Below, piece after piece: positions 3,854-64,000 of a stretch of 64,000 bases of DNA. Under the pieces are notes generated by a model. The model had not been told where the DNA came from, ran no database searches, and saw only the letters and a program-made list of their open reading frames with translations. The translations under genes and the position numbers were made by a program. Within the stretch, counting starts at the first letter, position 1. Each line of letters opens with the position of its first letter. Origin of the DNA: Mollicutes bacterium (GTDB lineage Bacteria > Bacillota_I > Bacilli_A > Izemoplasmatales > Izemoplasmataceae); NCBI GenBank assembly GCA_003553945.1, contig PWEL01000013.1:1-64000 (forward strand), in the 5' to 3' direction.

Positions 3854-3890
3854 CAAAATTGTTGTTAAAAAGGCAAATGAGGAGGCTACC

Positions 3891-45154: not shown

Positions 45155-45814
45155 ATGAGGTTCATTTTTAATGTGATTGAATTATATCGCGAACGGACGG
45201 CGTTCTTCCTCGATCTACTTTTAGAGCATATCTACCTCACAGGCGTCGCCATTCTCTTCATCACAATCATCGGAGTGAGCCTCGGGGTGCTCATGACCTA
45301 TCATAAAGGGGTTGCGAACACCGTCCTCTCCCTCACCAACTTCTTCTACACCATCCCCTCGATCGCCATGTTCGGCTTCTTGGTCACATTCACAGGCATC
45401 GGCAACACCCCCGCCATCATCGCATTGACCATCTACGGCGTACTGCCCGTCATCCGCAACACCTACGTCGGCATCAGCGAAGTCGACGACACCATCATCG
45501 AAGCGGCTACGGGCATGGGCGTCACCGTGCGACAGCTTCTCTTTAAGATCCAGCTTCCGCTCGCACTCCCCGTAATCATCGCCGGGTTCCGCACCATGGT
45601 CATCATGACCATCGCCCTCGGCGGCATCGCCTCGTTCATCGGTGCCGGAGGCCTCGGCATCGCCATCTGGCGGGGAATCTCCAACAACCACAATGAACTC
45701 ATCGCCGCGGGCAGTCTGCTCGTCGCCCTGCTCGCAGTCATCACAGACCTCGTCCTGAATTTCATCGAGAGAGGCATTCGCATCAAAATCTATGGAACCG
45801 CAAAGGAGCGTTGA
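45155..45814 (+). CDS. Osmoprotectant (glycine betaine/carnitine/choline) ABC transporter permease
   Basis: OpuCB-like; TYVGISEVDDTIIEAATGMGVTVRQLLFKIQLPLALPVIIAGFRT EAA motif. Confidence 0.9.
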   Translation: MRFIFNVIELYRERTAFFLDLLLEHIYLTGVAILFITIIGVSLGVLMTYHKGVANTVLSLTNFFYTIPSIAMFGFLVTFTGIGNTPAIIALTIYGVLPVIRNTYVGISEVDDTIIEAATGMGVTVRQLLFKIQLPLALPVIIAGFRTMVIMTIALGGIASFIGAGGLGIAIWRGISNNHNELIAAGSLLVALLAVITDLVLNFIERGIRIKIYGTAKER

Positions 45815-45818
45815 TACC

Positions 45819-46703
45819 ATGAAGAAAATCCTCACAGTCCTCACCATCATAGCGGGCGTCTTCGCCTTCACTGCGTGTGAAGAGCGGGACGAGGTCACGC
45901 TCGCAAGCAAACCAATGCCCGAGCAATACGTCCTCGCCCAGATCATGATAGAACTGATCGAAAGCGAGACCGACATCTCCGTCGACTACAGGTCCGGCAT
46001 CGGCGGCGGTACGAACAACATCCACCCCGGCATGGTCGAAGGCCAGTTCGACATCTACCCCGAATACACCGGCACCGGATGGATGGAAGTCCTCCGGGAG
46101 GACTTGATCCGGGACCCCGATGCACTAACGGAAGCCGTCAGGGAGGCCTACAGGGAGGAATTCGACATCGAATGGCTCGAACTCTACGGCTTCAACAACA
46201 CCTACGGGCTCGCCATGAAGGAGGACAAGGCTGACGAAATGGGCATCGAGACCTACAGCGACCTCGCCGAGAAGGCGGATGACCTCCATTTCGCGGCCGA
46301 ATATGATTTCTTCGAGCGCGAGGATGGCATGATCGGCCTTGAAGCGGCCTACGGCCTCGAGTTCGGTGAGAACAGCGAACTCGAAACCGGTCTGAAATAC
46401 ACTGCCATAGGAGACGACGAGGTCGATGTCATCAACGTCTGGTCCACGGACGGAAGGCTTAAGGAATACGACCTGCGCCTTCTTGAAGACGATGAGGATT
46501 TCTTTCCCTCCTATTACGCCGCGACATTGATCCGTCAGGAGACCCTTGAAGAATACCCTGAACTCGAGGATGTCCTCAACATTCTCGGCGGAAGGATAGA
46601 CAACGAGACCATCACTGCCATCAACTACCGCGTAGAGGTCGACAACGACGACCCCTACCAAGTCGCCATGGACTTCATCGAGTCGGAAGGACTGCTTGAT
46701 TGA
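45819..46703 (+). CDS. Osmoprotectant ABC transporter substrate-binding lipoprotein (OpuCC-like)
   Basis: Lipobox FAFTAC, GQFDIYPEYTGTGW, FNNTYGLAM. Confidence 0.88.
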   Translation: MKKILTVLTIIAGVFAFTACEERDEVTLASKPMPEQYVLAQIMIELIESETDISVDYRSGIGGGTNNIHPGMVEGQFDIYPEYTGTGWMEVLREDLIRDPDALTEAVREAYREEFDIEWLELYGFNNTYGLAMKEDKADEMGIETYSDLAEKADDLHFAAEYDFFEREDGMIGLEAAYGLEFGENSELETGLKYTAIGDDEVDVINVWSTDGRLKEYDLRLLEDDEDFFPSYYAATLIRQETLEEYPELEDVLNILGGRIDNETITAINYRVEVDNDDPYQVAMDFIESEGLLD

Positions 46704-47524: not shown

Positions 47525-47589
47525 AGGTTGGCATAGCTCTGTGGATATAGTACAATCACACACGAAAACAAAAGAAAGCGGTGTTCTGC

Positions 47590-49272
47590 ATGGAAAAATG
47601 GTGGCAAAGCGCAATCATCTATCAGGTCTACCTGCGCAGCTTCAAAGATGCGAACAATGACGGCATCGGCGACATCAAAGGCCTGATCGGCAAGATAGAC
47701 TATCTCGAGGAGATCGGCGTCGACACCATCTGGGTCTCTCCGCACTATGATTCGCCCATGGACGATAACGGCTACGACATCCGCGACTTCTACAAGGTCA
47801 GCGAGGACTACGGCACTCTCGAAGATTTCAAGGAGCTGTTGAAAGAGGCGCATGAAAGGGACATGAAAGTCATCACCGACCTCGTCCTCAACCACACCTC
47901 CGATGAACATCCGTGGTTCGAGGCGGCGAAGGATCCGAATCATCCGGAGCATGAATACTACCACGATTTCTATATCTGGCACGAACCGAAATACGAAGAC
48001 GGGAAGCGCAAGCGCCCGACCCGCTGGATCGGCTGGTTCGGCAACCCGGCATGGACCTACAACGAAGCCACGGATGAATACTATCTCCACATATTCAGCC
48101 GCAAGATGCCCGACCTCAACTGGCGCAACCCCGAGATGCGCAAGGCCATGAAAAAAGTCATCCAGTTCTGGATCGACCTCGGCGTGGACGGATTCCGCGT
48201 CGACGCCACCAACCATCTGGAGAAGAACTGGGACTTCCCCGACGGCTATCCGGGATACGAGAACTTCTCCAGCCTCCCCAAACATCATGAATACCTTCAG
48301 GAACTGGGCAGGGAGCTCTTCCACCCCAACGACCTCATGATCATCGGAGAGGCCGGCGGCGCCACACGCGAAGAGGCCCTTCAATACGCCGGATTCGATT
48401 CCGAGGAATTCAACATGCTCATCCATTTCGAGCACTGCTGGGTCGATACGGATGAGACGAACACGCTCACGCCCGGCAAATGGGCGAAGGGCACTGTCGA
48501 CATCACCCGGTTGAAAGAGAGCTTCTACCGCTGGTACAAAGTCTTCAAGGACAAGGGCTGGAACGCCATCTACTGGCACAACCACGACCAGCCGCGCATC
48601 GTCAGCCATTATGGCGACGACGAAACGCACTGGGAGCGAAGCGCCAAGATGCTGGCATGCGCCCTGTACCTCATCCCCGGCACGCCGATCGTCTATTACG
48701 GCGAGGAGATCGGCATGACCAACGTCGACTACGAAAACCTCGAGGACTTCAGGGATGTCGAGGTCTTCACCGAATACGAGAACTTCCGCCGAAACGGCGC
48801 ATCCCATGAGACCGCCATGCAGGCGCTCAGGGACCGCTCCCGCGATTCAGCGCGCTCCCCCATGCAATGGAGCGACGCCCCTTACGCAGGGTTCTCCGAA
48901 GTAAAGCCGTGGATACCGATCAACAGCAACTATGAAACCATCAACGTCGAAAGACAACAGCAATCGAAGTCCTCCATCCTCTCCACCTACAAGACCCTGC
49001 TCGCTCTCAGAGCGAAAGAGAATCTCAATTTCGCCGATCTCACATTCTACGACATCAGCCATCCCCAAAGCTTCAACTATCTGAGCACGGGGGAGCATCA
49101 CGAATACCTCGTCCTCTGCAATTTCTCAGAAAAGCCACTCACTATGGAATTCCCACTGGACCTGCAAACGTTCGATGTCTACTACTCCAATGTCGATATC
49201 GGGAAGGCTGAAAGGAAGAGCGAAGAATTCGCACCTTATGAGGCGCGCATATATAAAAGAAAGCGCCAGTGA
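47590..49272 (+). CDS. GH13 alpha-glucosidase/oligo-1,6-glucosidase (cytoplasmic)
   Basis: WWQSAIIYQVYLRSFKDANNDGIGDIKGLI...DLVLNHTSDEHPWF...GVDGFRVDAT...IIGEAGG...HNHDQPR. Confidence 0.93.
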   Translation: MEKWWQSAIIYQVYLRSFKDANNDGIGDIKGLIGKIDYLEEIGVDTIWVSPHYDSPMDDNGYDIRDFYKVSEDYGTLEDFKELLKEAHERDMKVITDLVLNHTSDEHPWFEAAKDPNHPEHEYYHDFYIWHEPKYEDGKRKRPTRWIGWFGNPAWTYNEATDEYYLHIFSRKMPDLNWRNPEMRKAMKKVIQFWIDLGVDGFRVDATNHLEKNWDFPDGYPGYENFSSLPKHHEYLQELGRELFHPNDLMIIGEAGGATREEALQYAGFDSEEFNMLIHFEHCWVDTDETNTLTPGKWAKGTVDITRLKESFYRWYKVFKDKGWNAIYWHNHDQPRIVSHYGDDETHWERSAKMLACALYLIPGTPIVYYGEEIGMTNVDYENLEDFRDVEVFTEYENFRRNGASHETAMQALRDRSRDSARSPMQWSDAPYAGFSEVKPWIPINSNYETINVERQQQSKSSILSTYKTLLALRAKENLNFADLTFYDISHPQSFNYLSTGEHHEYLVLCNFSEKPLTMEFPLDLQTFDVYYSNVDIGKAERKSEEFAPYEARIYKRKRQ

Positions 49273-49579: not shown

Positions 49580-51262
49580 ATGGAGTTTTTTGAACGCTTA
49601 AAAAAATGGATTGGCAAGCAATCAAGACGCTTTGTGTTTTTTTTGAGGAATAAAGCGGTCGGTTTCGTCCGCGGCATCTTCCGTTTCTTCCGGGCGATCG
49701 TTCTTGGAGTCCGGAATTTCTTCATCAGCATCTATAAGGCCGCGAAAGAACATCCGAAGTCTTTCCGCAAGGGCCTCATGAGCTTTTTTCTCATGGGACT
49801 CGGCCAGTTCCGCAACAAGCAATGGTACAAGGGAGGTATCTTTCTAGGCATTTTCCTTGTCTTCCTCATTGTCGAATTCGTCACTTCTGACTATATCTAC
49901 GCCCCGGCTGAACTCTCGCAGTACCCTGCCGACGATCAACTGTATTTCTTCAGAGATTACGGAGGGATCATCACACGAGGTATCTGGGGCTTTTTCTCTT
50001 TAGGTGCCTTGTCGATGGGCGACGCCTATCGCGGCATCACTATCGTGGGCGAGGACGCCCGTTACTCGTGGATGCTCGCAGATAACTCGAGGACCCTGAT
50101 GGGCGAAGGCATCATCATCGCAGTGCTGATGGTCGTCCTGATCGGTCTCTGGATCGCAAACATCCGCGATGCCTATAAGACAGACCTTAGGATCAGGGCC
50201 GGCGAAAAGGTCGAAAGCGCTAAAGAATGGGTCCGCTCCATCTGGGACCGGAACTTCGCCTATATCATCACCCTCCCCGGCGCGATCCTCGTGCTCTTCT
50301 TCATACTGATGCCGTTCCTGTTCTCCTTCCTCGTCGCCTTTACGAGCTATGACGCGGCGATCACACTGAGGATGGACCTCATCGCCTGGGAGACTGAAAC
50401 GTTCACCGACGTGCTTTTCGGCGGTGAACCCGCATGGCGAAGCTTCTTCTTCGATGTACTTAGGTGGACGGTCTTCTACGCTATCCTGAGCAGTGTCACC
50501 GTATACATACTCGGCTTCATCCAGGCACTGATCATCAACAGTAAATACGTGAAGTTCAAAAAAGTCTGGCGACTGATCCTCATCCTGCCCTGGGCCGTTC
50601 CCGGCATGGTCAGCCTGCTGGTCTTCTCCAACATATTCGGAGGCACCCACGGCCTCATGAACAATATTCTCGCAGATTTTGGAATCGTGGATAATGTAAG
50701 GGAGTTCCTTCGGACTATCGGACTCATCGGTTCACCGCGCGAGGAAGGCAACATCCAATGGTTCACGCATCCCGATAACGCCAACCTCGCCAGGGCGATC
50801 GTCCTTACGGTGAACCTGTGGATGGGCTTCCCCTATTTCATGTTGCTGATCACAGGGGTGCTCGGCACCATACCGCAAGAGCTCTATGAAGCGGCCGATA
50901 TCGACGGCGGGTCGGCACCGCAGAAATTCCGCTTCATCACCTTCCCCTGGGTCCTAAGGGCCACGGCTCCCGTCATCATCACGACCTTCACCTTCAACTT
51001 CAACAACTTCGGGGCCATCTACTTCCTCACCGGAGGTGGTCCTAGATACCACACCGCCGATGTCCCCAATGCCCTGCGGGGCATCGAACCCGGTCAGACG
51101 GATATTCTCATCTCCTGGATCTACACCATGGCCTTCGAATCCGGGGACCACGATGCCTACAACCTCGCAGCGGTCTACTCCATTCTCGTCTTCATCATGA
51201 TCGCTGTCGTGTCGCTCTATTATCTCTCCAAGCTCAAGTCGTTCTGGGAGGAAGATGATTGA
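49580..51262 (+). CDS. MalF-like sugar ABC transporter permease
   Basis: EAADIDGGSAPQKFRFITFP EAA loop, multi-TM, long basic N-terminal extension. Confidence 0.9.
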   Translation: MEFFERLKKWIGKQSRRFVFFLRNKAVGFVRGIFRFFRAIVLGVRNFFISIYKAAKEHPKSFRKGLMSFFLMGLGQFRNKQWYKGGIFLGIFLVFLIVEFVTSDYIYAPAELSQYPADDQLYFFRDYGGIITRGIWGFFSLGALSMGDAYRGITIVGEDARYSWMLADNSRTLMGEGIIIAVLMVVLIGLWIANIRDAYKTDLRIRAGEKVESAKEWVRSIWDRNFAYIITLPGAILVLFFILMPFLFSFLVAFTSYDAAITLRMDLIAWETETFTDVLFGGEPAWRSFFFDVLRWTVFYAILSSVTVYILGFIQALIINSKYVKFKKVWRLILILPWAVPGMVSLLVFSNIFGGTHGLMNNILADFGIVDNVREFLRTIGLIGSPREEGNIQWFTHPDNANLARAIVLTVNLWMGFPYFMLLITGVLGTIPQELYEAADIDGGSAPQKFRFITFPWVLRATAPVIITTFTFNFNNFGAIYFLTGGGPRYHTADVPNALRGIEPGQTDILISWIYTMAFESGDHDAYNLAAVYSILVFIMIAVVSLYYLSKLKSFWEEDD

Positions 51263-52130
51263 TATGAAAATGCTGAAGTTCAAAAAAGGTCTTGCTGGAA
51301 CCCTTATACACATATGGCTGATAATCTCAGTGATTATCTGTCTGGTCCCCATTCTGTGGATGCTTTCCGCGGCGTTCTCCGATGTGCCGCATATCGGCAG
51401 GGTGCCGATCATCCCCAACATCACTGAACTATCGCTCACCAATTTTGAAGAGATCTTCACGTACCGTTCGAGGTCGGGACAGATGTTCCCCGACTATATA
51501 AGGTCGTTCCTGGTCACGCTGGCCGTTGCGACAATCTCGACGACGCTCGTTGTGATCTTCTCCTCCCTTGTCGGTTTCGCCGTCACGCGTTTCCGCTTCA
51601 GAGCGAAAAAACCGGCGCTTCTCTTGATGATGGGACTCCAGATGTTCCCGGGCTTCATGGGCATGATCGCCCTCTTCATCATCTTCCGCGTATTCGGATG
51701 GCTGAACAACCCCTTCTTCCTCGCTCTGATCTATGTAGCGGGAGCTATCCCCTTCAATACATTCATCGTGCGCGGATTCATGCGCAATGTCCCCAAGTCT
51801 CTTGATGAGGCCGCCGCGATCGACGGCGCCACGAACCTGCAGATACTCGTCAAGATCATCGTCCCCCTGGCAGCGCCCATCATGGGATTCATCGCTGTCA
51901 ACGCCTTCATGGGACCCTGGATGGACTACATCCTACCATCAATCCTCATGCCCAACAATGAAACGGTCGCCATGTGGCTCTTCCGCATGAACGCCCCCGA
52001 CACACAACCGCATGAACCCATGTGGTTCATGGCCGGCGCCTTGTTCGTGACGGTTCCGATCATGATCGTGCAGATCTACATGCAGAAATACGTCACGTAC
52101 GGACTGACAGCCGGTGCTGAAAAAGGCTGA
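51255..52130 (+). CDS. MalG-like sugar ABC transporter permease
   Basis: DEAAAIDGATNLQILVKIIVPLAAPIMGF EAA loop. Confidence 0.9.
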   Translation: MIDMKMLKFKKGLAGTLIHIWLIISVIICLVPILWMLSAAFSDVPHIGRVPIIPNITELSLTNFEEIFTYRSRSGQMFPDYIRSFLVTLAVATISTTLVVIFSSLVGFAVTRFRFRAKKPALLLMMGLQMFPGFMGMIALFIIFRVFGWLNNPFFLALIYVAGAIPFNTFIVRGFMRNVPKSLDEAAAIDGATNLQILVKIIVPLAAPIMGFIAVNAFMGPWMDYILPSILMPNNETVAMWLFRMNAPDTQPHEPMWFMAGALFVTVPIMIVQIYMQKYVTYGLTAGAEKG

Positions 52131-52155: not shown

Positions 52156-53019
52156 ATGAAACAGAAATGGCTTACGTTCTTCAAGATGCTCTATAATCAT
52201 AATCTAGTACTCAGAGCCTACAAAGCGCCTTTTATCATCGTCATCATCCTTTTCCTCGTCAACATTGCCATGATTGCGGCTCCGGGCATCTTCGCCCACT
52301 TGCAGAACACCCACATGCCTGATTCTCTGGATGATGTGGATACTGCTTTCGTCGAACTCTATAAAGATGAAATCGACTGCCGCATCGAGGACAACCGGCT
52401 TGATTGCGATGCCTCCTACGACACCTATTACGGCGATTACCGCTTCTATACGACGGAGGGCCTCCCGAATGTCGAGGACATCGATGAATCGGCGATCATC
52501 CTTGGAGAGAGCCAGGCCGCCGCTGTGTTCATCGAGAACCGTGGCGAAGAGGACGAAATCTTCCGCGCCGTAGGTGGCGATTATCGTCTTCTGGATGAGT
52601 TTGATTTCTCGGATATCCGTGAACGGGCGGAAGCGTCTGAAGACAAGGACGCCTACTACGAAGAGACGACGAATATGTTCCTGATGAACCTCATGTACGC
52701 AGACATCGGACAGAACATGCTCATGAACTATATGCTGCAGGGTGCGCAGATGCTTCTCTATATCGTGTTCATCTCCGCCCTCTATCTGCTCACTAATTTC
52801 CGCGCGAGGATCAAGAAGGTCAACTACACCTCCGCCTTTAAAATGGCGGTATTCGCCATGACAGGGCCGGCGCTCGTCACAGCCGTCTTCTCGTTGATCA
52901 CCTTCCTCGCCGACTCAGCCCTTACGACCTGGGCCACATTGTTCTTCACCATGCTATACCTCATCAGAGTCATTCTTGTCTACAATAGGATCAACGAGAG
53001 TGAAAAACCGCTCTATTGA
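52156..53019 (+). CDS. DUF1189-like membrane protein
   Basis: N-terminal TM, extracytoplasmic acidic domain, three or more C-terminal TM helices; located inside maltodextrin operon. Confidence 0.65.
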   Translation: MKQKWLTFFKMLYNHNLVLRAYKAPFIIVIILFLVNIAMIAAPGIFAHLQNTHMPDSLDDVDTAFVELYKDEIDCRIEDNRLDCDASYDTYYGDYRFYTTEGLPNVEDIDESAIILGESQAAAVFIENRGEEDEIFRAVGGDYRLLDEFDFSDIRERAEASEDKDAYYEETTNMFLMNLMYADIGQNMLMNYMLQGAQMLLYIVFISALYLLTNFRARIKKVNYTSAFKMAVFAMTGPALVTAVFSLITFLADSALTTWATLFFTMLYLIRVILVYNRINESEKPLY

Positions 53020-53151: not shown

Positions 53152-54540
53152 ATGAAAAAATTCCTGGTCATGTTTGTTGCAGCCTTGATGGTCTTCACTG
53201 TTGCAGCATGTGAACGTGAGGAAGAGGAACCGAGCGTCGTATTCGATGAAGACGCCGGCCGGTTCGAAATTGAAGAAGACGCCGATGAAATCGTCGTCGG
53301 CGTGGACAGCGACCCCATGCGTGAAGCGCTCGAAGCGCAATGGGCGGAGGACTATCCTGAATACGAGGACCTTCTCGTCGTTGAGGACTATGAATCAGTC
53401 AACTCAGAGGACAGCGGCATGGAAGGGCTTGAACTCATGGAGGACGAAGCCCCTGACGTAGCGCTTGTCATTGACAACGAAGTAATCGGCCGCGAACCCG
53501 CGGTCCGCAGATTGCATGAGTATCACGAGCAGGTAGGCGAAGAACAGACACACAGCATCTATCATGACATCAGCGATCACGGCAACTTCTTCCTGCCGAT
53601 CTTCATCGACGGCATGGTGTTCTCCTGGAATAAGACCATGCTCGACGAGATGGGCGTCGATGTAGACGACAGGACAGAAGACAATCTCCCGAGCGAACTG
53701 GCATCGTGGAAGGATATCTTCGAATTCGCAGATGAATTCGGCGAAGACCCTGACGACCGTCCTGAGTTCGAAGACCGTGAAATCCTCGAATTCTTCCCGC
53801 TCAGCGTTGCGGAGGTATGGTCCGGGTATATGCAGCTCTCTTCCGGTGGCTGGCAGATCTATGAAGACGAGGTCTACAATGAGCCCGGCTTTGACGATCC
53901 CGCTTTCCTCGAAGGTCTTGAATTCCTCGATGAATTCTCCAACACCAACATGAGCGTTGATGAGACCGGATCCATCCGCGGCGGCGACGCTATGGACTGG
54001 CGCTGGGAGAACTACCTTGACGGTGACTATCCCTTCGGCCTCGTCGGAACCTGGATGGACGTCGAGGAAGCCATGGTGGATTATGGCTACGAATTCCAAT
54101 TCAGCCGCGTGCCCACCTGGGAAGGTGAGCATCCTTCAACGCTATACAAGACCAAGGGCTTCGTCATCAACAGCGCCACTGAATATCCTTCTGCAGCCAA
54201 CGAAGTTCTGAGATGGCTCTATGAACAATCCACCATTGAAACGATGATCGACAACTCGACCTATATCCCTGCGCTGCAGGAAGACGCTGACATCTACCCC
54301 GACATGGCGGATGACTACAAGGACGACATGACTGAAGCCATGATGGCGGACGGATGGCTCGAATCAGCCGAGACACTTCCGAACAATCCTTCAAGACGTG
54401 CGATGAGTGTCCTTTATGACATCGGCGTGGAAGACTACATGGTTGAAGTCTGGGATGGTTATTTGACTCCTGAAGAAGCGCAGGACGCCATCGTCGACGC
54501 TGCTGATCACTGGATTGAAGAGAACGATACGCTCGACTAA
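53152..54540 (+). CDS. Maltodextrin ABC transporter substrate-binding lipoprotein (MalE-like), highly acidic
   Basis: Lipobox FTVAAC; SBP family 1 layout (DGMVFSWNKTMLDEMGVD, FGLVGTW, TKGFVINSAT). Confidence 0.9.
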   Translation: MKKFLVMFVAALMVFTVAACEREEEEPSVVFDEDAGRFEIEEDADEIVVGVDSDPMREALEAQWAEDYPEYEDLLVVEDYESVNSEDSGMEGLELMEDEAPDVALVIDNEVIGREPAVRRLHEYHEQVGEEQTHSIYHDISDHGNFFLPIFIDGMVFSWNKTMLDEMGVDVDDRTEDNLPSELASWKDIFEFADEFGEDPDDRPEFEDREILEFFPLSVAEVWSGYMQLSSGGWQIYEDEVYNEPGFDDPAFLEGLEFLDEFSNTNMSVDETGSIRGGDAMDWRWENYLDGDYPFGLVGTWMDVEEAMVDYGYEFQFSRVPTWEGEHPSTLYKTKGFVINSATEYPSAANEVLRWLYEQSTIETMIDNSTYIPALQEDADIYPDMADDYKDDMTEAMMADGWLESAETLPNNPSRRAMSVLYDIGVEDYMVEVWDGYLTPEEAQDAIVDAADHWIEENDTLD

Positions 54541-54576: not shown

Positions 54577-54590
54577 AAAGGATGATTTAC

Positions 54591-56174
54591 ATGAAAAGTC
54601 TTATTGCCGCAACTTTGTTTCTAGTCATATTCACACTCGCAGCCTGTGATCCGGAAACGCCGGACGATGAGTTCACAGCGGATGATATCGCCCCCGCCTC
54701 GACGGCATTCCAAGAAGATGTCGATGTCTGTTATCAGATCTTCCCCATCTCCTATGCTGACAGCACCTCCGACGGCGACGGCGACCTGATGGGCATCGTG
54801 GAGAACGTGGAATACCTGAGCGAGGACCTCGGCGTGGACTGCGTATGGCTCAACCCCATCAACCCCTCCCCGAGCTATCATAAGTACAACGTCAGGGATT
54901 ATTACGACATCGATGAGACGTTCGGCGACATGGATGATTTCGAGACCTTCGCCGAAACCATGGAAGAACACGACATAAAGATCGTCAAGGACCTTGTCAT
55001 CAACCACACCGATTTCGGTCATATCTGGTTCCGTCGCTCCCGAGAGGATGAAGGGGACATGCGCGATTGGTACAGCTGGCGTGACGAACCGGGGCATAAC
55101 TGGCATGAGTACAACGGCGAATATTACTACGGCTCCTTCTGGGACCAGATGCCCGAACTCAATTTCGACAACCCCGATGTCAGGGAGAGAGTCTATCATA
55201 TCGCTGAATACTGGCTCGAGAGAGGCGTGGATGGATTCAGGATCGATGCCGCACGGCATATCTACGATGACCATCAATATCCTGATGACGTCGATACCAC
55301 GCAGGAGAACGTGGACTTCTTCCGCGAATTCAACGCAGAGATCAAAAACATCGATGAAGATGCCTTCATCGTCGGAGAGATCTGGAGTGAAAGCGAGCGT
55401 TACGTCAGTCAGTATTACGAAGGTATGGATTCGGCGTTCAACTTCAAATTCGCCGACGAGATTGTCGGCGCTATCTCCAACGACCGCGACAACGGTGCGA
55501 TCGAAGGCCTTATCGACAGCCGGAATGCCTATGAGGAAGTGCGGGAGGACTACATCGATTCCGTATTCCTCTCCAACCACGACCAAAGACGCATCATGAA
55601 CGCCTTCCAATACAACGAGGACCGGGCGAAACTCGCAGCGCACGTGCTCATGACAATGCCCGGCATCTCCTGGATCTATTACGGCGAGGAGATCGGCATG
55701 TCCGGCTCGGGCAGCGACCCGGAAAAAAGGCAGCCGTTCGTCTGGGAGACGGACAGTCCGTACCATGCCGAAGGCGTGATGGATGGCCACCACGATTCCA
55801 TCGCCGGCTGGGATGATCACAACCAGGACCTCCCAGGTGCCTACGAACAGCTCGAGGATGAAGATTCACTGCTCAACACCTACATCGAACTCATCGAACT
55901 AAAGCAGACGCGTGATGTGCTCGGCAACACTTCATCGATCAGCGCTCTTGAAACCGACAGCAACGCGTTCATGGCCTATGAACGTGGCGGGGGCGATGAC
56001 AGATATCTCGTTGTGCACAACCTCAATGCGCAGGAGAGAACTACACCCTTCCAGGCTGATAGCTACGATATTGTCTATACCTCACATGATGCAGAAATCG
56101 AGGAAGACATTACCATGCAGGGTCGCTCAACAGTCATTCTGGATGTTGAAGGCGACGCATCGTTGATTGAATAA
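54591..56174 (+). CDS. GH13 alpha-amylase lipoprotein
   Basis: Lipobox FTLAAC; DLVINHTDFGHIWF, GVDGFRIDAARHI, VGEIWSES, FLSNHDQRR. Confidence 0.92.
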   Translation: MKSLIAATLFLVIFTLAACDPETPDDEFTADDIAPASTAFQEDVDVCYQIFPISYADSTSDGDGDLMGIVENVEYLSEDLGVDCVWLNPINPSPSYHKYNVRDYYDIDETFGDMDDFETFAETMEEHDIKIVKDLVINHTDFGHIWFRRSREDEGDMRDWYSWRDEPGHNWHEYNGEYYYGSFWDQMPELNFDNPDVRERVYHIAEYWLERGVDGFRIDAARHIYDDHQYPDDVDTTQENVDFFREFNAEIKNIDEDAFIVGEIWSESERYVSQYYEGMDSAFNFKFADEIVGAISNDRDNGAIEGLIDSRNAYEEVREDYIDSVFLSNHDQRRIMNAFQYNEDRAKLAAHVLMTMPGISWIYYGEEIGMSGSGSDPEKRQPFVWETDSPYHAEGVMDGHHDSIAGWDDHNQDLPGAYEQLEDEDSLLNTYIELIELKQTRDVLGNTSSISALETDSNAFMAYERGGGDDRYLVVHNLNAQERTTPFQADSYDIVYTSHDAEIEEDITMQGRSTVILDVEGDASLIE

Positions 56175-56277
56175 GCACCATCCAACCTTCCGATATCAGA
56201 CAAAAAAGGACCAGGCTTTTTGAACTGCACCCCGAAACTTGGACACTAACAATCCAAGAAAGGGGTGCAGTTTTTCT

Positions 56278-56748
56278 ATGAAAAACTATACAGCGACATT
56301 CAAGAAGAAAGGGGTAGAGAATTACTTCCGAAACGGCCTATCCCATACGAAAAGCGTGTATAATGTGGATGACAGCAGCATCTACAAATGGGTCAGGCGG
56401 CTGAAAGGAGGAAAAGGGCTTATGCGGAAGAAGAGTGAATCCTACAGCTTGGAGAAGAAACTGGAGATTCTCTCCTACTACAGGAAGCGTGGCAAAGCGG
56501 CCACGAAAGAAAGATATGACATCGAAGCCAGCGTCTTTTACAAGTGGGAACGCATCCTGCATGAGAAAGGGGAGGCAGCATTGGCGGAGGAGCGCCGTGG
56601 TCGTCCCAAAAAGAAAGTGAAGAAAGATGTGAACCAAGACAAAGACCTTCTCGAAGAGAACCGTCGGTTGCGATTGGAGGTGGAGTATCTAAAAAAGCTC
56701 GACGCCTTGATTCGCGAACGGGAAGAGCGCGAAAAGAAGAAAAAGTGA
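56278..56748 (+). CDS. IS3-family transposase OrfA (HTH, leucine-zipper-like C-terminus)
   Basis: YSLEKKLEILSYYRKRGKAATKERYDIEASVFYKWERIL; C-terminal RLRLEVEYLKKLDAL. Confidence 0.88.
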   Translation: MKNYTATFKKKGVENYFRNGLSHTKSVYNVDDSSIYKWVRRLKGGKGLMRKKSESYSLEKKLEILSYYRKRGKAATKERYDIEASVFYKWERILHEKGEAALAEERRGRPKKKVKKDVNQDKDLLEENRRLRLEVEYLKKLDALIREREEREKKKK

Positions 56749-57604
56749 GAATCATCGAGGAACTGAGGCGAAAGTACCGCTGTGCGCTCCGGATACTACT
56801 CATCATATCCGAGATGCGGCGTTCGACCTTCTATGAGGTCAAAAGCCGCCTCGGGAGAGAAGACAAGGACAAAGCGTTGCGAGAGCTGATCGGGGAAATC
56901 TATCACCACCATCACGGTCGTTATGGCTATCGACGAATCACGCTGACATTACGCAAGCGCCACCAGCTCGCTGTCAACCACAAGAAAGTCTATAGAATCA
57001 TGAAGGAAGAGGGCTTGGCAGCACGGATTCGCCGCAAGAAGTAGCGTTCCTACAAAGGCGAAGTCGGCCGGGGGCACCCAATCTTCTGAATCGCGATTTC
57101 GACACCCTGCATACCGATGAGAAATGGGTGATGGACGTCACTGAGTTCCATCTCTTGGGACGACGTATCTATCTATCTTCCATCCTCGATCTTCACAGTC
57201 GGGAGGTTGTCGGCCACGCCACAAGCTTCACTCCGAGTGTCCCTTTCGTGATGCAGTCTCTCGAAAAGGCCCTGCAAAAGCGGAAGACCCGCCCCCATAT
57301 CCTTCATTCCGATCAAGGTTTCCAATACCAGAATCGCAGATTCATCACCAAGCTCCGGGAAAGCGGTATCGATCAGAGCATGTCGAGAAAGGGGAATTGT
57401 CTCGACAATGCCGTCATCGAGAACTTCTTCAGCATTCTCAAGACAGAATTCTATCATGGCGAAAGATTCACCTCTATCAATCAGTTCCTCAGGTCTCTTC
57501 ATGCCTATATCGACTACTATAACAACGAGCGCATCTCACTCAAACTGAAAGGACTGACTCCTGCGGAAGTCCGGAATCAGTCCTCTCAAGTACAGCTCTA
57601 TTAG
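56745..57604 (+). pseudogene. IS3-family transposase OrfB, disrupted by TAG (57042-57044) and a 1-nt deletion
   Basis: N-part IGEIYHHHHGRYGYRRITLTLRK; C-part WVMDVTEFHLLGRRIYLSSILDL...HSDQGFQYQNRRF...CLDNAVIENFFSILKTE (DDE). Confidence 0.85.
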
Positions 57605-57685: not shown

Positions 57686-60577
57686 TTATGAAGGACGTGT
57701 GACCTTGTAGATGACACCTGCGGCGACAGCGATGACTACGACGCCGCCGGCGACAGAAATAATGATGCCCCAAGGTGTCTCATCCTCAACCGGATCCGGT
57801 TCATAATCGTCCGGATCGGCGAAGACGTTGATATCCTCTTCGGTGTACATGATGCGTGATTCGTTAGCCGCAAGCTCGATGGTCTCGCCGCCGTCTTGTT
57901 CGAAGAGCGTCGTAAGGGTCGTCTCGTCATCCAAGTCGCCGATCTCATCGGTCGTGGCCACCACATTCCATGTGCCGCCAGGCATGTCGAAGTCCCGCGC
58001 CTCTGTGCCGTTATTATGCACGACAAGCGTCGTGGTCCAGAGGTCGTCGTCGGCTTCGAAGGCATAGGCGACCATGCCGTCTTCCTGCGACATAAGACGC
58101 AGGGTGCCCTGGACATCCTCCTGCGAGGGCAGCGTGAGGAAGTCCTTCTCCTTGCGGAGCTCGATCAGGTTTCTATAGTATTCGAACGTGTCGTGATACT
58201 CGACCTTCCTGTCCCAATCGAGCTGGTTGGTCTCGTCGGGGGAGCGATACGAGTTGGGGTCGAACGGCATGTCCTCATCCTCAAAGTAATCCGACTGCAT
58301 CTCCGGGTCGAGCAGCGGCTTCGTCCGGAGGAAGTCGGCACCGGCATGCAGGAACGAGATTCCCTGCGAGGTCAGGACGATATTGTTGGCCTGGCGCTGC
58401 ATGCGCACGATGCCCGCCATGTCGTCGGGGTCGTCCATGTCGGCGCCGGTGCTGTAGACGAGCTTGTCATGCAGGGTCATATCGTCATGCACGGAGACAT
58501 AGTTGACGGTCTGCGTCGGCTCCACGGCCCAGGGGTTCTGGTAGCCGAGGCCGGGGATGTCGACCGCGCCTGTGACGCCGAGCAACACATCATCATCGGC
58601 GTTATCGTCGCCCTGGACGAAGCCAATTTCCATGTGGTCCGCCCAGTGTCCCTGCGCGATACCGTCGCGAGAATCGTCATTGAACACGGCGATATCGGGC
58701 ATCTCGTCGAGGTTACCCTTGTTCGCTGCATCCTCATCGGGAAGCTCTGAAGCGCCGCCCGTCCAGGGTTCGCCGTAGAGGACGATGTCCTCATCAATCT
58801 CCTGTAGCTCTTCCGCCACGGTGTTCATGGTCTCGACATCATGCAGGGCCATTAGGTCGAAGCGGAAGCCGTCGACATTGTATTCCTCGACGAAGAATGT
58901 CATGGAGTCGACCATGAACTTCCTGAACATCTCCCTATCAGACGCTGTCTCGTTGCCTGTACCGCTGCCGTCGGAGAAATTGCCCTGGTCATCGAAGCGG
59001 TGATAATAGCCAGGGACGATCTGATGGAAGTTCGATTCGGCGGATTGTCCCGTATGGTTGTAGACGACGTCCATGATTACGCCGATATCGTTCTCGTGGA
59101 ATTCCTGCACCATCTTTTTGAACTCATTGACGACGACCTCGCCGTTATAGGGGTCCGTGCTGTAGCTGCCCTCGAGCGAGTTGAAGTGCCTGGGCATGTA
59201 GCCCCAGTTGAAGATGCCGTTATAGACACCGTGGATCTCTTCGTCGTCGAGACGGGATTCATCGACCATGCCGAAGTCCATCACCGGAAGCAGATGGACG
59301 TGCGTCACGCCGAGTTCCTTGATGTGGTCGAAGCCGGTGGTGACGCCTTCATGGCTTGTGCCCTCCTCGACAAGGCCGAGGAACTTGCCACGGTAGTCCT
59401 CCGTGCCGTCCCACGCCTCGTGCGAGGTCAAGTCGCGTGTATGCAGTTCGTAGATGATGGCGTCGGCCGGGGAATCCATATCATGCGGTGAACGTCCGTA
59501 CTCCCAGCCGTCCGGGTTCTGGCGCTCGAAATCGACGACCATCGAGCGCTGACCGTTCAGACCGGTGGCGTAGGAATAGGGGTCGGTAACCTCGTGCGGG
59601 CCGCCGCGGTCACCGTTGTCCACGGTGTAGGTGAAATACGTACCGTGCAGGTCGCCCTCGACAGTCGTCGACCACACGCCCTGTTCACCTTCGCTCATCT
59701 CGATGGTCTCATACGGATCATCGACACCATCGTTGCCGTCATAGTCCTCATAGCTCGATGTATGGCCCTTCTCATAGAGATTGAGCTCGACGGATTCGCT
59801 CAAGGGCGCCCAGAGCTTGAACTCCGTCTCGTCCTCGCTGTATATGGGGCCGAGCTCGCCGTCATAGCCGTATTCCTCGTGGAATTCGTCGCTGTCGAAC
59901 ACACCGTGCAGGTCAATCACGCGCTCCGCGGGTTCTTCTTCGCCAAGGTCGGCGCTGAGGGTGTATTCATACTCGAGGTCGACCTCCTCCTCGAGCGTGA
60001 TGGTGCCGGTGTCGTTGTCGGAGGAGAATTCATCGATAGCGACGGAAGTGCCGTTCGCAAGCACCTCCACGTCCTCCTCACCCACTGGAAGCGTGGTCCG
60101 ATAGCTGATGGTCGAGGTGTCATCGAACATTGCGGACAGTATCCTGTGCGAGGTGTCGACCTCGTCCTCATCATAATAGATGGTCGGGTCGCCCTGCACC
60201 ATGAAGACTTCGACGACACCGTCTTCATCGGGGTCGGTCATGTCGATATGAAGGTCCTGAGGGACATCGCGGTTGTCCCAGTCATCCCCGCGGACGATGA
60301 CGCCGATCTCGGTTGAATCCTCAAGGTTCGTCCCCTCAAGGTCGAGTTCAAGCTGCCTGCCGAAATCCGTCTCGTCCGTCCAGTGATAACGTTCGCCTTC
60401 CCCCGATTCCGGTTCATGCGGCCAGAGCCACACGGAATCGAAGAAGGAGAAATCATCGTCGAAACGGAAATAATTGATGACGAGTGTGTCAGTATCGGTC
60501 GCGGAGACTGTCATGCTTGCAAGCATAAGGGCGATGACAAAAACCCCTGCGGTCAGGAACCGCTTGATTAAATACAT
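57686..60577 (-). CDS. Type I pullulanase (CBM41-like N-terminus, GH13_14), signal peptide and C-terminal TM anchor
   Basis: IYELHTRDLTSHE, VDGFRFDLMALHDVETM, IVLYGEPWTGG, NYVSVHDDMTLHDKL; C-terminal WGIIISVAGGVVVIAVAAGVIYKVTRPS. Confidence 0.93.
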   Translation of the reverse strand: MYLIKRFLTAGVFVIALMLASMTVSATDTDTLVINYFRFDDDFSFFDSVWLWPHEPESGEGERYHWTDETDFGRQLELDLEGTNLEDSTEIGVIVRGDDWDNRDVPQDLHIDMTDPDEDGVVEVFMVQGDPTIYYDEDEVDTSHRILSAMFDDTSTISYRTTLPVGEEDVEVLANGTSVAIDEFSSDNDTGTITLEEEVDLEYEYTLSADLGEEEPAERVIDLHGVFDSDEFHEEYGYDGELGPIYSEDETEFKLWAPLSESVELNLYEKGHTSSYEDYDGNDGVDDPYETIEMSEGEQGVWSTTVEGDLHGTYFTYTVDNGDRGGPHEVTDPYSYATGLNGQRSMVVDFERQNPDGWEYGRSPHDMDSPADAIIYELHTRDLTSHEAWDGTEDYRGKFLGLVEEGTSHEGVTTGFDHIKELGVTHVHLLPVMDFGMVDESRLDDEEIHGVYNGIFNWGYMPRHFNSLEGSYSTDPYNGEVVVNEFKKMVQEFHENDIGVIMDVVYNHTGQSAESNFHQIVPGYYHRFDDQGNFSDGSGTGNETASDREMFRKFMVDSMTFFVEEYNVDGFRFDLMALHDVETMNTVAEELQEIDEDIVLYGEPWTGGASELPDEDAANKGNLDEMPDIAVFNDDSRDGIAQGHWADHMEIGFVQGDDNADDDVLLGVTGAVDIPGLGYQNPWAVEPTQTVNYVSVHDDMTLHDKLVYSTGADMDDPDDMAGIVRMQRQANNIVLTSQGISFLHAGADFLRTKPLLDPEMQSDYFEDEDMPFDPNSYRSPDETNQLDWDRKVEYHDTFEYYRNLIELRKEKDFLTLPSQEDVQGTLRLMSQEDGMVAYAFEADDDLWTTTLVVHNNGTEARDFDMPGGTWNVVATTDEIGDLDDETTLTTLFEQDGGETIELAANESRIMYTEEDINVFADPDDYEPDPVEDETPWGIIISVAGGVVVIAVAAGVIYKVTRPS

Positions 60578-60615
60578 GTATAAACCTCCAAGTTAGTTTT
60601 GTTGGATACAATTAG

Positions 60616-60653
60616 AGAAAAAGGCAAATCCGCCCAGGCGAATTTGCCTTTTA
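60616..60653 (-). terminator. Terminator between multi-repeat lipoprotein gene and pullulanase gene
   Basis: AAAGGCAAATTCGCCTGGGCGGATTTGCCTTTTT on minus strand. Confidence 0.75.
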
Positions 60654-60674
60654 AACATTTCCTAGGTAGGCCGA

Positions 60675-63140
60675 TCAGTCAGCAATATGATTCTCTGCGT
60701 CATCCATGCTTTCGAAGATTTCACCGTCGACAGTGACGTAGGCATGATCGGAATCGATCAATTCTACTTCGCCGGTGCCGACTTCATCATCTTCAGCATT
60801 GATGAAATCCACAAAGGGGACCTGTTCTGAGTCAGGATCGACCGGCAGTTCTACGTAGTACCAGCCGTCTTCTTCGGCTTCGTCAATCTCAGGGCCGGGC
60901 CATTCAAGGTCGGCTTCAGGATAGCCATCGAACGGGTCAGTCCAGACTTCTTCGTCGCCGAAATGCATCCATGACCATACTTGGACTGCGTCCCAGTCGT
61001 CACTGTTATAGAAGTAGACGGTGAAGAGATCCTCGTCATAGTCGGTCCAGATCGTCGCTTGTTCGAGTGTGGGGAAGCGATCGACCAATGACATGTAGAG
61101 ATCCGTCTCTTCATAGGCGACAGTGTAAGGGTCGCTTTCAGCATCGTCGCCGTCATGGAACGTTATATCAAATGATTCGTTCTCTTCAAGCGCCCAAGGG
61201 ACTGAGATGAGATACCAATCTTCGAACGGTGCGTCCTCGTTGACAACACCCTCAATTTCATGTACCTCTTCGCCATCGTCGACTGTTGCATGGACTGCGT
61301 CCCAGCCTTCACTGTTGTAGAAGTGGACCTGGGTCTCGGCGAGATAGTCCTCGGTCGCCTCTTCAGCGTCTTCCTTGCTGGTATAAGCTACATTGTCGAT
61401 AGCTATATAGACATGGTCGCTATCAGGAATCTCGACATCGTCGGTCTGAACCTCTTGCTCATCCTCATCTTCAATTTCAGGATCGATGCCATTGAAGATG
61501 AAATCTGTTCCTTGGGCTTCAAGGTCGAGGCCGGGCACATCTATATAGTACCAATTGCCTTCATCATGTTCTGCTTCACCGCCGGGCCATCCGCCTAGCA
61601 ATTCAGCGGGGTCCCAAAGGTAGCCGCCTAGTTCATCCCATTCATGCACATTGTAGAAATAGATTGTCTCATAGACGTCGTTGACTTCTTTCTCTGCCAG
61701 TGCAGTCGCTTCAACCATGTCGTTATAGAGGTCTATTTCGGTGAGATAGATATATTCTTCATCGTCGATGGTTGCGTCGACACTGTTGTCGTTGCCGTCA
61801 TCGACAGTGATGTCGAATGATTCATCCTCTTCAAGGACTGTGGGAACGATGATCTCATACCATTCGTTTTGGGACCAGTCGAATTCTCCTGCATCGTCAT
61901 AGGGGTCTATGGTGGTTTCTTCATCGAGCGCTTCATCGTCTGTGATTTCGACATAGACATTGTCCCAGCCAGCTGCGTCATAGAAGTAGACAACTGTTAC
62001 GCCGGCTGCGGTAAGTTCTGCATCTTCTCTGGAAGCGAAGAGCTCATTGTAGATGACATAGTTGTCAGTTTCCTCGGTGATGGTCTGGGTCTCAGCTTCT
62101 TCGCCGTTGCCATCATGGAATGTGACTTCGAAATAGGCATCGTTGTTCTCTTCTTCGTCGTTTTCTTCGTCATTTTCTTCCTCGTCATTGAAAACAAAGG
62201 GGATGTAGGCTGGATGCCAGTTGCCGAAGTGTTCTTCGACTTCTTCGTCTTCGACAAGGACTTCGCCTTCATGATCGACAGCATCCACATAGACTTCGTC
62301 CCAGCCTTCAAAATCCGTGCCTTCTACCGCGTAATTGTAGAAGTTGACTGTAGTGGTTTCGTCCATGACATCGAATACATGCTCGGCCGTCTCATAAGAC
62401 CTGTAGGCATAGGATTCATCAGGGATATCGGGATGTGTGTAGACGAGTTCGGAATCGTTGATCAGAATATCTTCGGTCTGTACATCTTCGCCTTCTTCGT
62501 CTTCACCATTGATGATAAAGCCGATCTCGACTTCATCCACTTCTTCGGGAACCTCGACATAATACCAATCTTCCCTGTCGTCCTCCTGGACGGCGTCGGA
62601 AGAGCCCGGCCAATCACCGAAATATTGATCGCCGGCGTCATTCCAGGCATACGCGCCGAGATTCTCCCATCCGTACGCGTTGTAGAAATAGACCGTGGTT
62701 TCTTCAACTTCTCTCATGGCGAAAGCCGCATCAGCTCTTGAGCCATAGGGGCCTTCCCCATCGTAAGTCACAAAGTAATGGTCGGGGTGGTTAACTGTCA
62801 CTGGCTCGCTTTCTTCTTCGTCACCGTCATTGAAAGAGATGGTGACAGGATTGTCGAAAAGGTCCTCAACAGGGACATCGATAGCGTAGAAATCTTCATC
62901 CGCATCTTCAACATCGACATCCTCCAACAATGTTGCCTCTTCCCCAGGGAATTCGCCTAGGAGTTCCTCTCCATCAGCGTCCTGAGCAGTGGCATAAACC
63001 TCGTCCCAGCCTTCGCTGTTATAGAATTGAATCTCGGTAGGGTCGATGTCCGGTTCAGGTTCTTCTTCTTCGAACAGACCACATGCCGCAAACAGTCCTA
63101 ATGATAGAACTAATACTAGTGCTAGTAAACCTTTCTTCAT
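60675..63140 (-). CDS. Hyperacidic lipoprotein made of about seven tandem CBM26/CBM25-like starch-binding repeats, no catalytic domain
   Basis: Lipobox LFAAC; seven FYN/FYD...W-D/E...WPG-like...WYY-V-VP units separated by S-x-E-D-A linkers. Confidence 0.8.
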   Translation of the reverse strand: MKKGLLALVLVLSLGLFAACGLFEEEEPEPDIDPTEIQFYNSEGWDEVYATAQDADGEELLGEFPGEEATLLEDVDVEDADEDFYAIDVPVEDLFDNPVTISFNDGDEEESEPVTVNHPDHYFVTYDGEGPYGSRADAAFAMREVEETTVYFYNAYGWENLGAYAWNDAGDQYFGDWPGSSDAVQEDDREDWYYVEVPEEVDEVEIGFIINGEDEEGEDVQTEDILINDSELVYTHPDIPDESYAYRSYETAEHVFDVMDETTTVNFYNYAVEGTDFEGWDEVYVDAVDHEGEVLVEDEEVEEHFGNWHPAYIPFVFNDEEENDEENDEEENNDAYFEVTFHDGNGEEAETQTITEETDNYVIYNELFASREDAELTAAGVTVVYFYDAAGWDNVYVEITDDEALDEETTIDPYDDAGEFDWSQNEWYEIIVPTVLEEDESFDITVDDGNDNSVDATIDDEEYIYLTEIDLYNDMVEATALAEKEVNDVYETIYFYNVHEWDELGGYLWDPAELLGGWPGGEAEHDEGNWYYIDVPGLDLEAQGTDFIFNGIDPEIEDEDEQEVQTDDVEIPDSDHVYIAIDNVAYTSKEDAEEATEDYLAETQVHFYNSEGWDAVHATVDDGEEVHEIEGVVNEDAPFEDWYLISVPWALEENESFDITFHDGDDAESDPYTVAYEETDLYMSLVDRFPTLEQATIWTDYDEDLFTVYFYNSDDWDAVQVWSWMHFGDEEVWTDPFDGYPEADLEWPGPEIDEAEEDGWYYVELPVDPDSEQVPFVDFINAEDDEVGTGEVELIDSDHAYVTVDGEIFESMDDAENHIAD
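60680..63040 (-). repeat. About seven protein-level tandem repeats of roughly 112 aa within the lipoprotein
   Basis: IQFYNSEGW, VYFYNAYGW, VNFYNYAVEGTDFEGW, VYFYDAAGW, IYFYNVHEW, VHFYNSEGW, VYFYNSDDW. Confidence 0.85.
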
Positions 63141-63163
63141 CGTGCATACCTCTCCTTTCATAT

Positions 63164-63199
63164 TTTGTTTCCATTGATTCCATTGTTTCCTTGTTTCTT
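63164..63199 (-). repeat. Four tandem 9-bp direct repeats (minus-strand consensus GGAAACAAT) in the 5' leader of the lipoprotein gene
   Basis: AAGAAACAA|GGAAACAAT|GGAATCAAT|GGAAACAAA read on minus strand. Confidence 0.65.
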
Positions 63200-63331
63200 A
63201 CATATCCCGTCCATCGAAATGGACGGACTGGCGGATGAACGCTTCATCCTCAGGTTGTTTCCATGGACAACTTAATAACTCTGCCTCTTGTTTTTACCCC
63301 CCCTTGAACAGAATGTATATCCCTTTCGCAT

Positions 63332-63619
63332 CTACTGTGAGAATGCGAACATTGCCACAAAAGCAAGTCCCAGGACAATAGCGATGAATGTACTGATGAT
63401 GACGCCGATCAAGATGAATCTCGCACCCTCGGGATGTCTTTGTCTGAACGCGATATAGATCAAGAACCCTACGAACGGAAACAAAAATCCCAGAAAGGCA
63501 AAGCCGACGTGCCCCTTGCCGTATAGCTGATAGGACTTGACAGCGTCGGCGAGGGTGTCGCAATAGATGCATCTTTGTCCATCGAGCTCTCTACCGCAGT
63601 TAGAACAGCGTTCTGCCAT
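63332..63619 (-). CDS. Zinc-ribbon membrane protein, 95 aa
   Basis: CSNCGRELDGQRCIYC followed by two TM helices. Confidence 0.75.
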   Translation of the reverse strand: MAERCSNCGRELDGQRCIYCDTLADAVKSYQLYGKGHVGFAFLGFLFPFVGFLIYIAFRQRHPEGARFILIGVIISTFIAIVLGLAFVAMFAFSQ

Positions 63620-63639: not shown

Positions 63640-64000
63640 TTAATTGATGCGTTGTTCATCCTCCGAGTCGAAGAAATGGGCGCGTTCCATATCAAAGATG
63701 AAGTTCACTGTGTCGCCGATAGCGACATCCGTACGGGCATCGACGCGGGCGATGAGCTCCTCATCCCCTTTTGAAGCGGTGATGTTGGTCTCCGAGCCCA
63801 TGAGCTCGGCGATGGAGACCTCCGCCTCGAAAAAATCGTCGGGGTTCGCTTCAATCAGATCGTCCGCGCGTTCGTCATGAATATCCTGGGGACGTATGCC
63901 GAGTGTTACTTTCTTGCCGACATAGCCCTTATCTTTCATGAGAGTGAAGTGCTCATCAGAGACATGGACTTCGAAGTCCCTGGACTTGAAAGTCTGATTG
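63640..64000 (-). CDS. C-terminal part of MsmK/UgpC/MalK-type ABC ATPase (TOBE domain), truncated by window edge
   Basis: VTLGIRPQDIHDE...AEVSIAELMGSETNITASKGDEELIARVDARTDVAIGDTVNFIFDMERAHFFD; frame open to 64000. Confidence 0.88.
   Translation of the reverse strand, partial: NQTFKSRDFEVHVSDEHFTLMKDKGYVGKKVTLGIRPQDIHDERADDLIEANPDDFFEAEVSIAELMGSETNITASKGDEELIARVDARTDVAIGDTVNFIFDMERAHFFDSEDEQRIN

Follow-up and report, generated by a model that had tools for sequence, protein, structure and literature searches.

What might a long, repetitive lipoprotein contribute to a bacterium whose neighbouring genes degrade and import starch? The question is raised by a gene in a Mollicutes bacterium (Izemoplasmataceae; assembly GCA_003553945.1), for which we analysed a stretch of 64,000 nt, positions 1 to 64,000 of contig PWEL01000013.1, hereafter the window. 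A first-pass annotation had read the product as a non-catalytic array of about seven starch-binding-like modules that captures starch or glycogen at the cell surface; we have evaluated that reading through profile searches, structural models and comparison with related genomes.

The gene and its product

The array gene lies whole at 60675..63140 on the reverse strand and encodes 821 aa from an ATG at 63140, with a Pfam CBM26 match of 2.2e-22. Its reading frame can be opened to 63161 (828 aa, the start chosen by the ORF finder), and residues are numbered here on that 828-aa frame. A Shine-Dalgarno-like site, AAGGAGAGGT, lies 7 nt ahead of the ATG at 63140 and fits that start, hence the gene end at 63140 is taken to be right, as are the coordinates 60675-63140 first given for it. 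A signal peptide with the lipobox LFAAC occupies 63081..63140 (reverse strand), the predicted lipidated cysteine being Cys27 (63081-63083), in agreement with the lipobox originally noted; the full-length AlphaFold model places a helix at residues 5-27, over the signal peptide. Pfam and NCBIfam scans found no glycoside hydrolase domain in the protein, consistent with the absence of a catalytic motif from the earlier reading, and the Pfam scan found neither dockerin nor cohesin. With an anchoring signal, no hydrolase domain and linked starch-use genes, the protein would fit the non-catalytic type of starch adherence protein.

Seven tandem modules

The modules start at residues 44, 157, 272, 391, 500, 612 and 715. 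A family HMM built solely on modules from other genomes, with the window sequence left out, recognised exactly seven domains (44-148, 157-252, 285-384, 391-488, 500-604, 612-706 and 715-825) scoring 26.3-82.2 bits, against a maximum of 8.2 bits among 1000 composition-preserving shuffles; the seven repeats are therefore real and not due to composition or chance. The full-length model (pLDDT 70) likewise comprises seven beta-rich units with one helix after each, the helices starting within the S-x-x-D-A linkers; it was used for counting repeat units alone, since pLDDT 70 is too weak for a fold search. The linkers described in the first-pass annotation are present as S-x-x-(D/T)-A, five of the seven strictly, and the FPG or WPG turns that it had attributed to four repeats are those of modules 1, 2, 5 and 7.

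All seven modules are encoded on the reverse strand and fall into three classes, A, B and N, in the order N-A-B-B-A-B-A. Module 1 (62718..63032; N class) has an FPG turn and an FNDGDEEES loop. The A class comprises module 2 (62406..62693), a canonical CBM26 with the motifs GAYAW, DWPG and VQTED, module 5 (61350..61664), with GGYLW, GWPG and VQTDD, and module 7 (60687..61019). The B class comprises module 3 (62010..62348), which lacks the WPG loop and has an FHDGN loop, module 4 (61698..61991), and module 6 (61044..61328), with an FHDGDDAES loop.

Relationship of the modules to CBM26

The starch-binding-like character proposed for the repeats was upheld, both by the Pfam profile and by fold. 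Against PF16738 (CBM26), the whole protein scored 79.4 bits (cut-off 28.1; E 2.2e-22) over four stretches, the best being residues 157-218, in module 2. When the search was made repeat by repeat, modules 2 and 5 exceeded the cut-off alone and module 7 did so together with the adjoining modules; modules 1 and 6 fell below it, modules 3 and 4 went undetected, and no B module reached it. An AlphaFold model was built for modules 5-6 from 15 related pairs (pLDDT 89.1). Its single PDB match below 1e-3 was the pair of CBM26 modules in Eubacterium rectale Amy13K, entry 6b15 (E 5.5e-10, probability 1.00), with an alignment covering both modules. TM-scores for the pair were low (0.33-0.34), probably due to a differing orientation between the modules. 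The Amy13K CBM26 structure has been described with bound maltotetraose (PMC9112005).

Profile-profile comparison matched A to B modules with 98.7% probability, and B modules are therefore relatives of CBM26. By fold and by this match, modules 1, 3, 4 and 6 are all CBM26 relatives and not canonical binders. Profiles of the A modules were needed for an informative PDB match; Y-x-[YWF], WPG and Gln proved common to the A class and to the CBM26 modules of Amy13K and of R. bromii Amy16. A single-sequence search with the whole protein was insufficient and returned a polyamine-binding protein by chance (E 0.7), which we rejected. Also set aside was a weak match of the B profile to a biofilm-associated surface protein (3.2e-5 over the whole sequence; about 0.5-0.8 for single stretches), judged to reflect similar Asp-rich beta repeats because B is tied to A at 98.7%. 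No non-carbohydrate fold emerged: the model of modules 5-6 matches a CBM26 pair, and modules 2, 5 and 7 appear to retain the binding triad considered below.

Loss of the aromatic platform from four modules

The array modules were aligned with modules from nine related proteins. In this alignment the CBM26 aromatic triad (Y/W-x-W and the WPG Trp) appears to be kept in modules 2, 5 and 7 only, as YWW, YWW and WWW, and the QT glutamine of the Amy13K and Amy16 modules is kept in 2 and 5 and replaced by Gly in 7. Modules 1, 3, 4 and 6 lack the aromatic pair, the WPG Trp and the Gln; their triad positions read T/Q/F, D/V/gap, E/T/E and T/D/I respectively. Across the arrays of soda-lake Mollicutes and Izimaplasma, loss of the aromatic pair is generally accompanied by loss of the Trp and Gln; the separation is less clean in modules of Lachnospiraceae amylases (L054_m4, for example, has Y, E, W, N). 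Three of these amylases (L054, L055 and L057) likewise have a first CBM26-like module without WPG or triad, which indicates that the platform has been lost outside the soda-lake lineage too.

We take Trp32 of the Lactobacillus amylovorus CBM26 to be the WPG Trp. In LaCBM26 the single change W32L is reported to abolish starch binding (PMC6260227), so binding of the CBM26 kind is unlikely for the B modules. The proposal of starch capture by seven modules would therefore hold for modules 2, 5 and 7, which keep the triad, and does not extend to modules 1, 3, 4 and 6, which have lost it; not all seven are likely binders.

Platform-free modules are shared between genomes. A tree of 53 modules places all 11 B modules to one side of a branch with support of 94/98, and 92% of bootstrap trees recover them as a single clade. 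They derive from the window and from L048, L049, L050 and L052, four further soda-lake genomes; modules 3, 4 and 6 thus belong to one B clade, which is restricted to related soda-lake arrays. Module order is N-A-B-A-B-A in L048 and L050, and A-B-B-A-B-A in L049, the start of which is lost at a contig end. The shared clade and interleaved orders indicate that the platform-free modules are old and kept, and the occurrence of the clade in five genomes with its own conserved motifs indicates that B has been maintained and is not the product of random decay.

Such maintenance would also be expected if all seven modules bound, the B and N modules by a different surface, giving an array of mixed specificity, perhaps with branched glycogen, the ends of chains or a different glycan among its targets. 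A candidate surface exists in their own FHDGD-x-x-ES loop and the conserved tyrosine of VY-A, and Sas20d1, whose fold is CBM26-like, has its own mode of glucan binding (PMC9112005). However, in the B modules of the array the Y-x-W pair has disappeared along with WPG and Gln and, as noted, no B module reaches the Pfam cut-off; we regard this reading as unlikely, though not negligible.

Genomic neighbourhood

The adjacent lipoprotein amylase, anchored pullulanase and Mal-type importer of the first-pass annotation are present, the importer being of MalFG type, and their arrangement is conserved in relatives. On the forward strand lie, in order, MalF-like and MalG-like permeases (49580..52130; PF00528, with NCBIfam MalF and MalG similarity below cut-off), a membrane protein, an acidic lipoprotein (53152..54540) and a lipoprotein GH13 amylase without CBM26 (54582..56174; PF00128, 5.5e-85). 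The acidic lipoprotein is probably the solute-binding protein of the importer, given its position between permeases and amylase; no family in Pfam or NCBIfam exceeded its cut-off, and it is 63-66% identical in L035 and L036, two soda-lake genomes of the same genus in which the cluster is conserved. After the amylase, on the reverse strand, come a type I pullulanase (57686..60577; TIGR02104, 1.3e-200) with PUD (CBM41) and CBM48 domains by Pfam and a C-terminal membrane anchor, the array gene, a small zinc-ribbon membrane protein, and the C-terminal part (TOBE/OB_MalK) of a probable importer ATPase (63640..63999), cut by the window edge. The whole ATPase homologue in L036 matches the UgpC/MalK family. 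L036 has the same gene order throughout and L035 as far as the zinc-ribbon gene; the pullulanase, directly downstream of the array gene on the same strand, is adjacent to it also in L035, L036 and L037. Within the host genome, which is incomplete (64%), CBM26 was found solely in the array protein.

Several further features of this region were observed. The MalF-like permease (49580-51262) matches the MalF model over residues 283-549 only, and its N-terminal part is long, with extra hydrophobic segments. The membrane protein at 52156-53019 has a weak DUF1189 likeness, and in L035 and L036 too it separates the solute-binding protein from MalG. An IS3-type transposase pair (56239-57604) separates the convergent amylase and pullulanase genes and is missing from that place in L035 and L036. 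The zinc-ribbon protein (63332-63619; 95 aa, with a membrane helix), just upstream of the array gene, is kept in L035, L036 and L045. A further GH13 enzyme, of phosphotrehalase/oligoglucosidase type, is encoded at 47581-49272.

The adjoining pullulanase, the conserved linkage of the amylase and the interleaving of A and B in arrays of the genus would suit an array that acts as a scaffold, its B and N modules docking amylase or pullulanase to glucan held by the A modules, much like a dockerin-free amylosome. This we consider improbable: no dockerin- or cohesin-like domain was detected by Pfam, amylase and pullulanase each have their own anchor, and the strongly like charges of the partners make direct docking less likely.

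Acidity

The mature protein contains 254 D/E and 8 K/R in 801 aa, and a recount of the first 100 residues after the Cys reproduced the 37 D/E and no K/R reported earlier. Cytoplasmic proteins in the window mostly have about 12-18% D/E and comparable K/R. Among exported proteins, D/E amounts to 26% in the solute-binding protein, 22.5% in the amylase, 23% in the pullulanase, 24% in a glycine-betaine-binding lipoprotein and 31% in the array protein, relatives of which span 18% (L051) to 32% (G004). Since neighbouring exported proteins are also acidic, acidity marks export and nothing specific to starch, and the idea of a special role for it in glucan capture was rejected. The acidity of the array reads as haloadaptation, and acidic exported proteins are as we would expect for a user of compatible solutes. 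The betaine-binding lipoprotein (45792-46703) is similar to OsmF, in agreement with such a lifestyle.

That the array has no part in carbohydrate use and is a generic salt-tolerant, Ig-like adhesin or surface layer, for which its extreme acidity (31% D/E) and a weak similarity of B modules to bacterial Ig-type repeats might speak, is most improbable in view of modules 2, 5 and 7, which show the profile, fold and triad specific to CBM26, and of the linkage to starch genes.

Distribution and comparison with known systems

CBM26 is carried by 17 of 199 genomes of the class, including, by eye, enzyme-appended examples such as those in G128 and G200. Non-catalytic proteins were also found, classed by eye within the class (L062-L066) and by Pfam in two Clostridia lipoproteins outside it (L058 and L059). 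They include a lipoprotein of another family (L064:5993-9244) with about 10 CBM26 modules, nearly all with WPG, that by eye is not strongly acidic; a four-module protein with a membrane helix beside importer genes (L065); a two-module lipoprotein beside a pullulanase-like lipoprotein (L066); and three-module proteins (L062/L063). Like the array protein, these seven begin with a signal peptide and are anchored by a lipobox or C-terminal membrane helix, with between 2 and about 10 CBM26 modules; unlike it, they are much less acidic and have no recognised B-class modules. Non-catalytic multi-CBM26 surface proteins thus occur in several Mollicutes-related and Clostridia lineages, and the array architecture is not unique. 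No viral relatives were found among IMG/VR contigs.

The SusE and SusF proteins of Bacteroides work with outer-membrane SusC/D import. They resemble the array in role, as non-catalytic surface starch proteins alongside amylase and uptake proteins, but their modules are of the X25 type (PMC9112005) whereas those of the array are CBM26 and its import is by an ABC system. The parallel drawn in the first-pass annotation, with an unrelated architecture, holds on both of these points; the architecture nevertheless recurs elsewhere. The Amy13K pair shares its fold and tandem arrangement with the array, and its YxW, WPG and QT with modules 2, 5 and 7, but is attached to an amylase, whereas the array modules are the whole protein and four lack the triad. 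The L. amylovorus amylase also carries CBM26 in tandem, as five identical copies (PMC6260227), whereas those of the array are divergent and non-catalytic. Doc22 of the Ruminococcus bromii amylosome, listed as CBM26-CBM26-DUF-dockerin, and Sas20, a surface alpha-glucan binder (PMC9112005), are likewise non-catalytic; both are dockerin-assembled, unlike the lipid-anchored array without dockerin. In the part of the literature covered, we found no paper on such a lipoprotein in this group. The array is a variant of this known kind, in which familiar modules of types A and B are combined in one lipid-anchored protein without catalytic function, in a haloalkaliphile that probably has no wall.

The host and its envelope

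Relatives in the same genus are MAGs named 'Mollicutes bacterium', with isolate names that match those of a soda-lake sediment study (PMC6146748), in which Tenericutes MAGs are described as free-living fermenters of simple sugars; a more distant relative is a 'Candidatus Izimaplasma' MAG. One contig (L047; PUKU01000013.1) is identical to window positions 59637-63499 at 3859 of 3863 sites and belongs to a B1Sed10 MAG labelled Candidatus Aenigmatarchaeota, B1Sed10 being among the high-salinity datasets (PMC6146748). It is most likely a misbinned bacterial contig. Although it was the one strong archaeal hit, it was rejected as a sign of transfer, because its sequence is all but identical and only its bin is archaeal.

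The PF00905 transpeptidase was detected in none of six genomes of the genus (three at least 90% complete) and in 10 of 14 control genomes; with penicillin-binding proteins lacking, a peptidoglycan wall is probably absent. Each genome has one Mur-ligase-domain gene of 426-522 aa, presumably folylpolyglutamate synthase, which this single copy fits, and it was not counted as a wall pathway. The absence of PF00905 agrees with the peptidoglycan loss predicted in Izemoplasmatales (PMC10868615).

Discussion

From the predicted fold, the anchoring signal, the module classes, the gene linkage and the lack of a catalytic domain, we judge the array quite likely to be a non-enzymatic, membrane-anchored alpha-glucan capture protein that feeds the adjacent enzymes and importer; from these we infer the binding itself, its ligand, the avidity and the spacer role. 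The N-terminal lipid would tether the seven CBM26-fold modules, as a flexible string, to the cell surface of a haloalkaliphile. Modules 2, 5 and 7, with their CBM26 aromatic platform, would be expected to bind helical alpha-1,4-glucan weakly singly and with avidity jointly, and modules 1, 3, 4 and 6, which keep the fold and have lost the platform, would most likely serve as spacers or solubility modules. Two co-encoded enzymes, the lipoprotein amylase and the membrane-anchored pullulanase, would cleave the held glucan to oligosaccharides, which would then enter through the solute-binding protein and the MalFG/ATPase importer. More tentatively, and with considerable doubt on our part, arrays of the genus may combine A binders with interleaved, conserved, platform-free B modules to offer spaced sites, or B sites with a second and so far undescribed specificity, on a naked membrane in near-saturated brine.

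The array suggests how bacteria with neither wall nor outer membrane may hold polysaccharide, through a dedicated binding lipoprotein apart from the enzymes, and this division of labour between binding and catalysis recurs in relatives. Its interleaved platform-free modules offer a clean test of the role of non-binding modules in CBM arrays, and the protein, as a strongly acidic, salt-adapted putative starch binder, may be of practical use.
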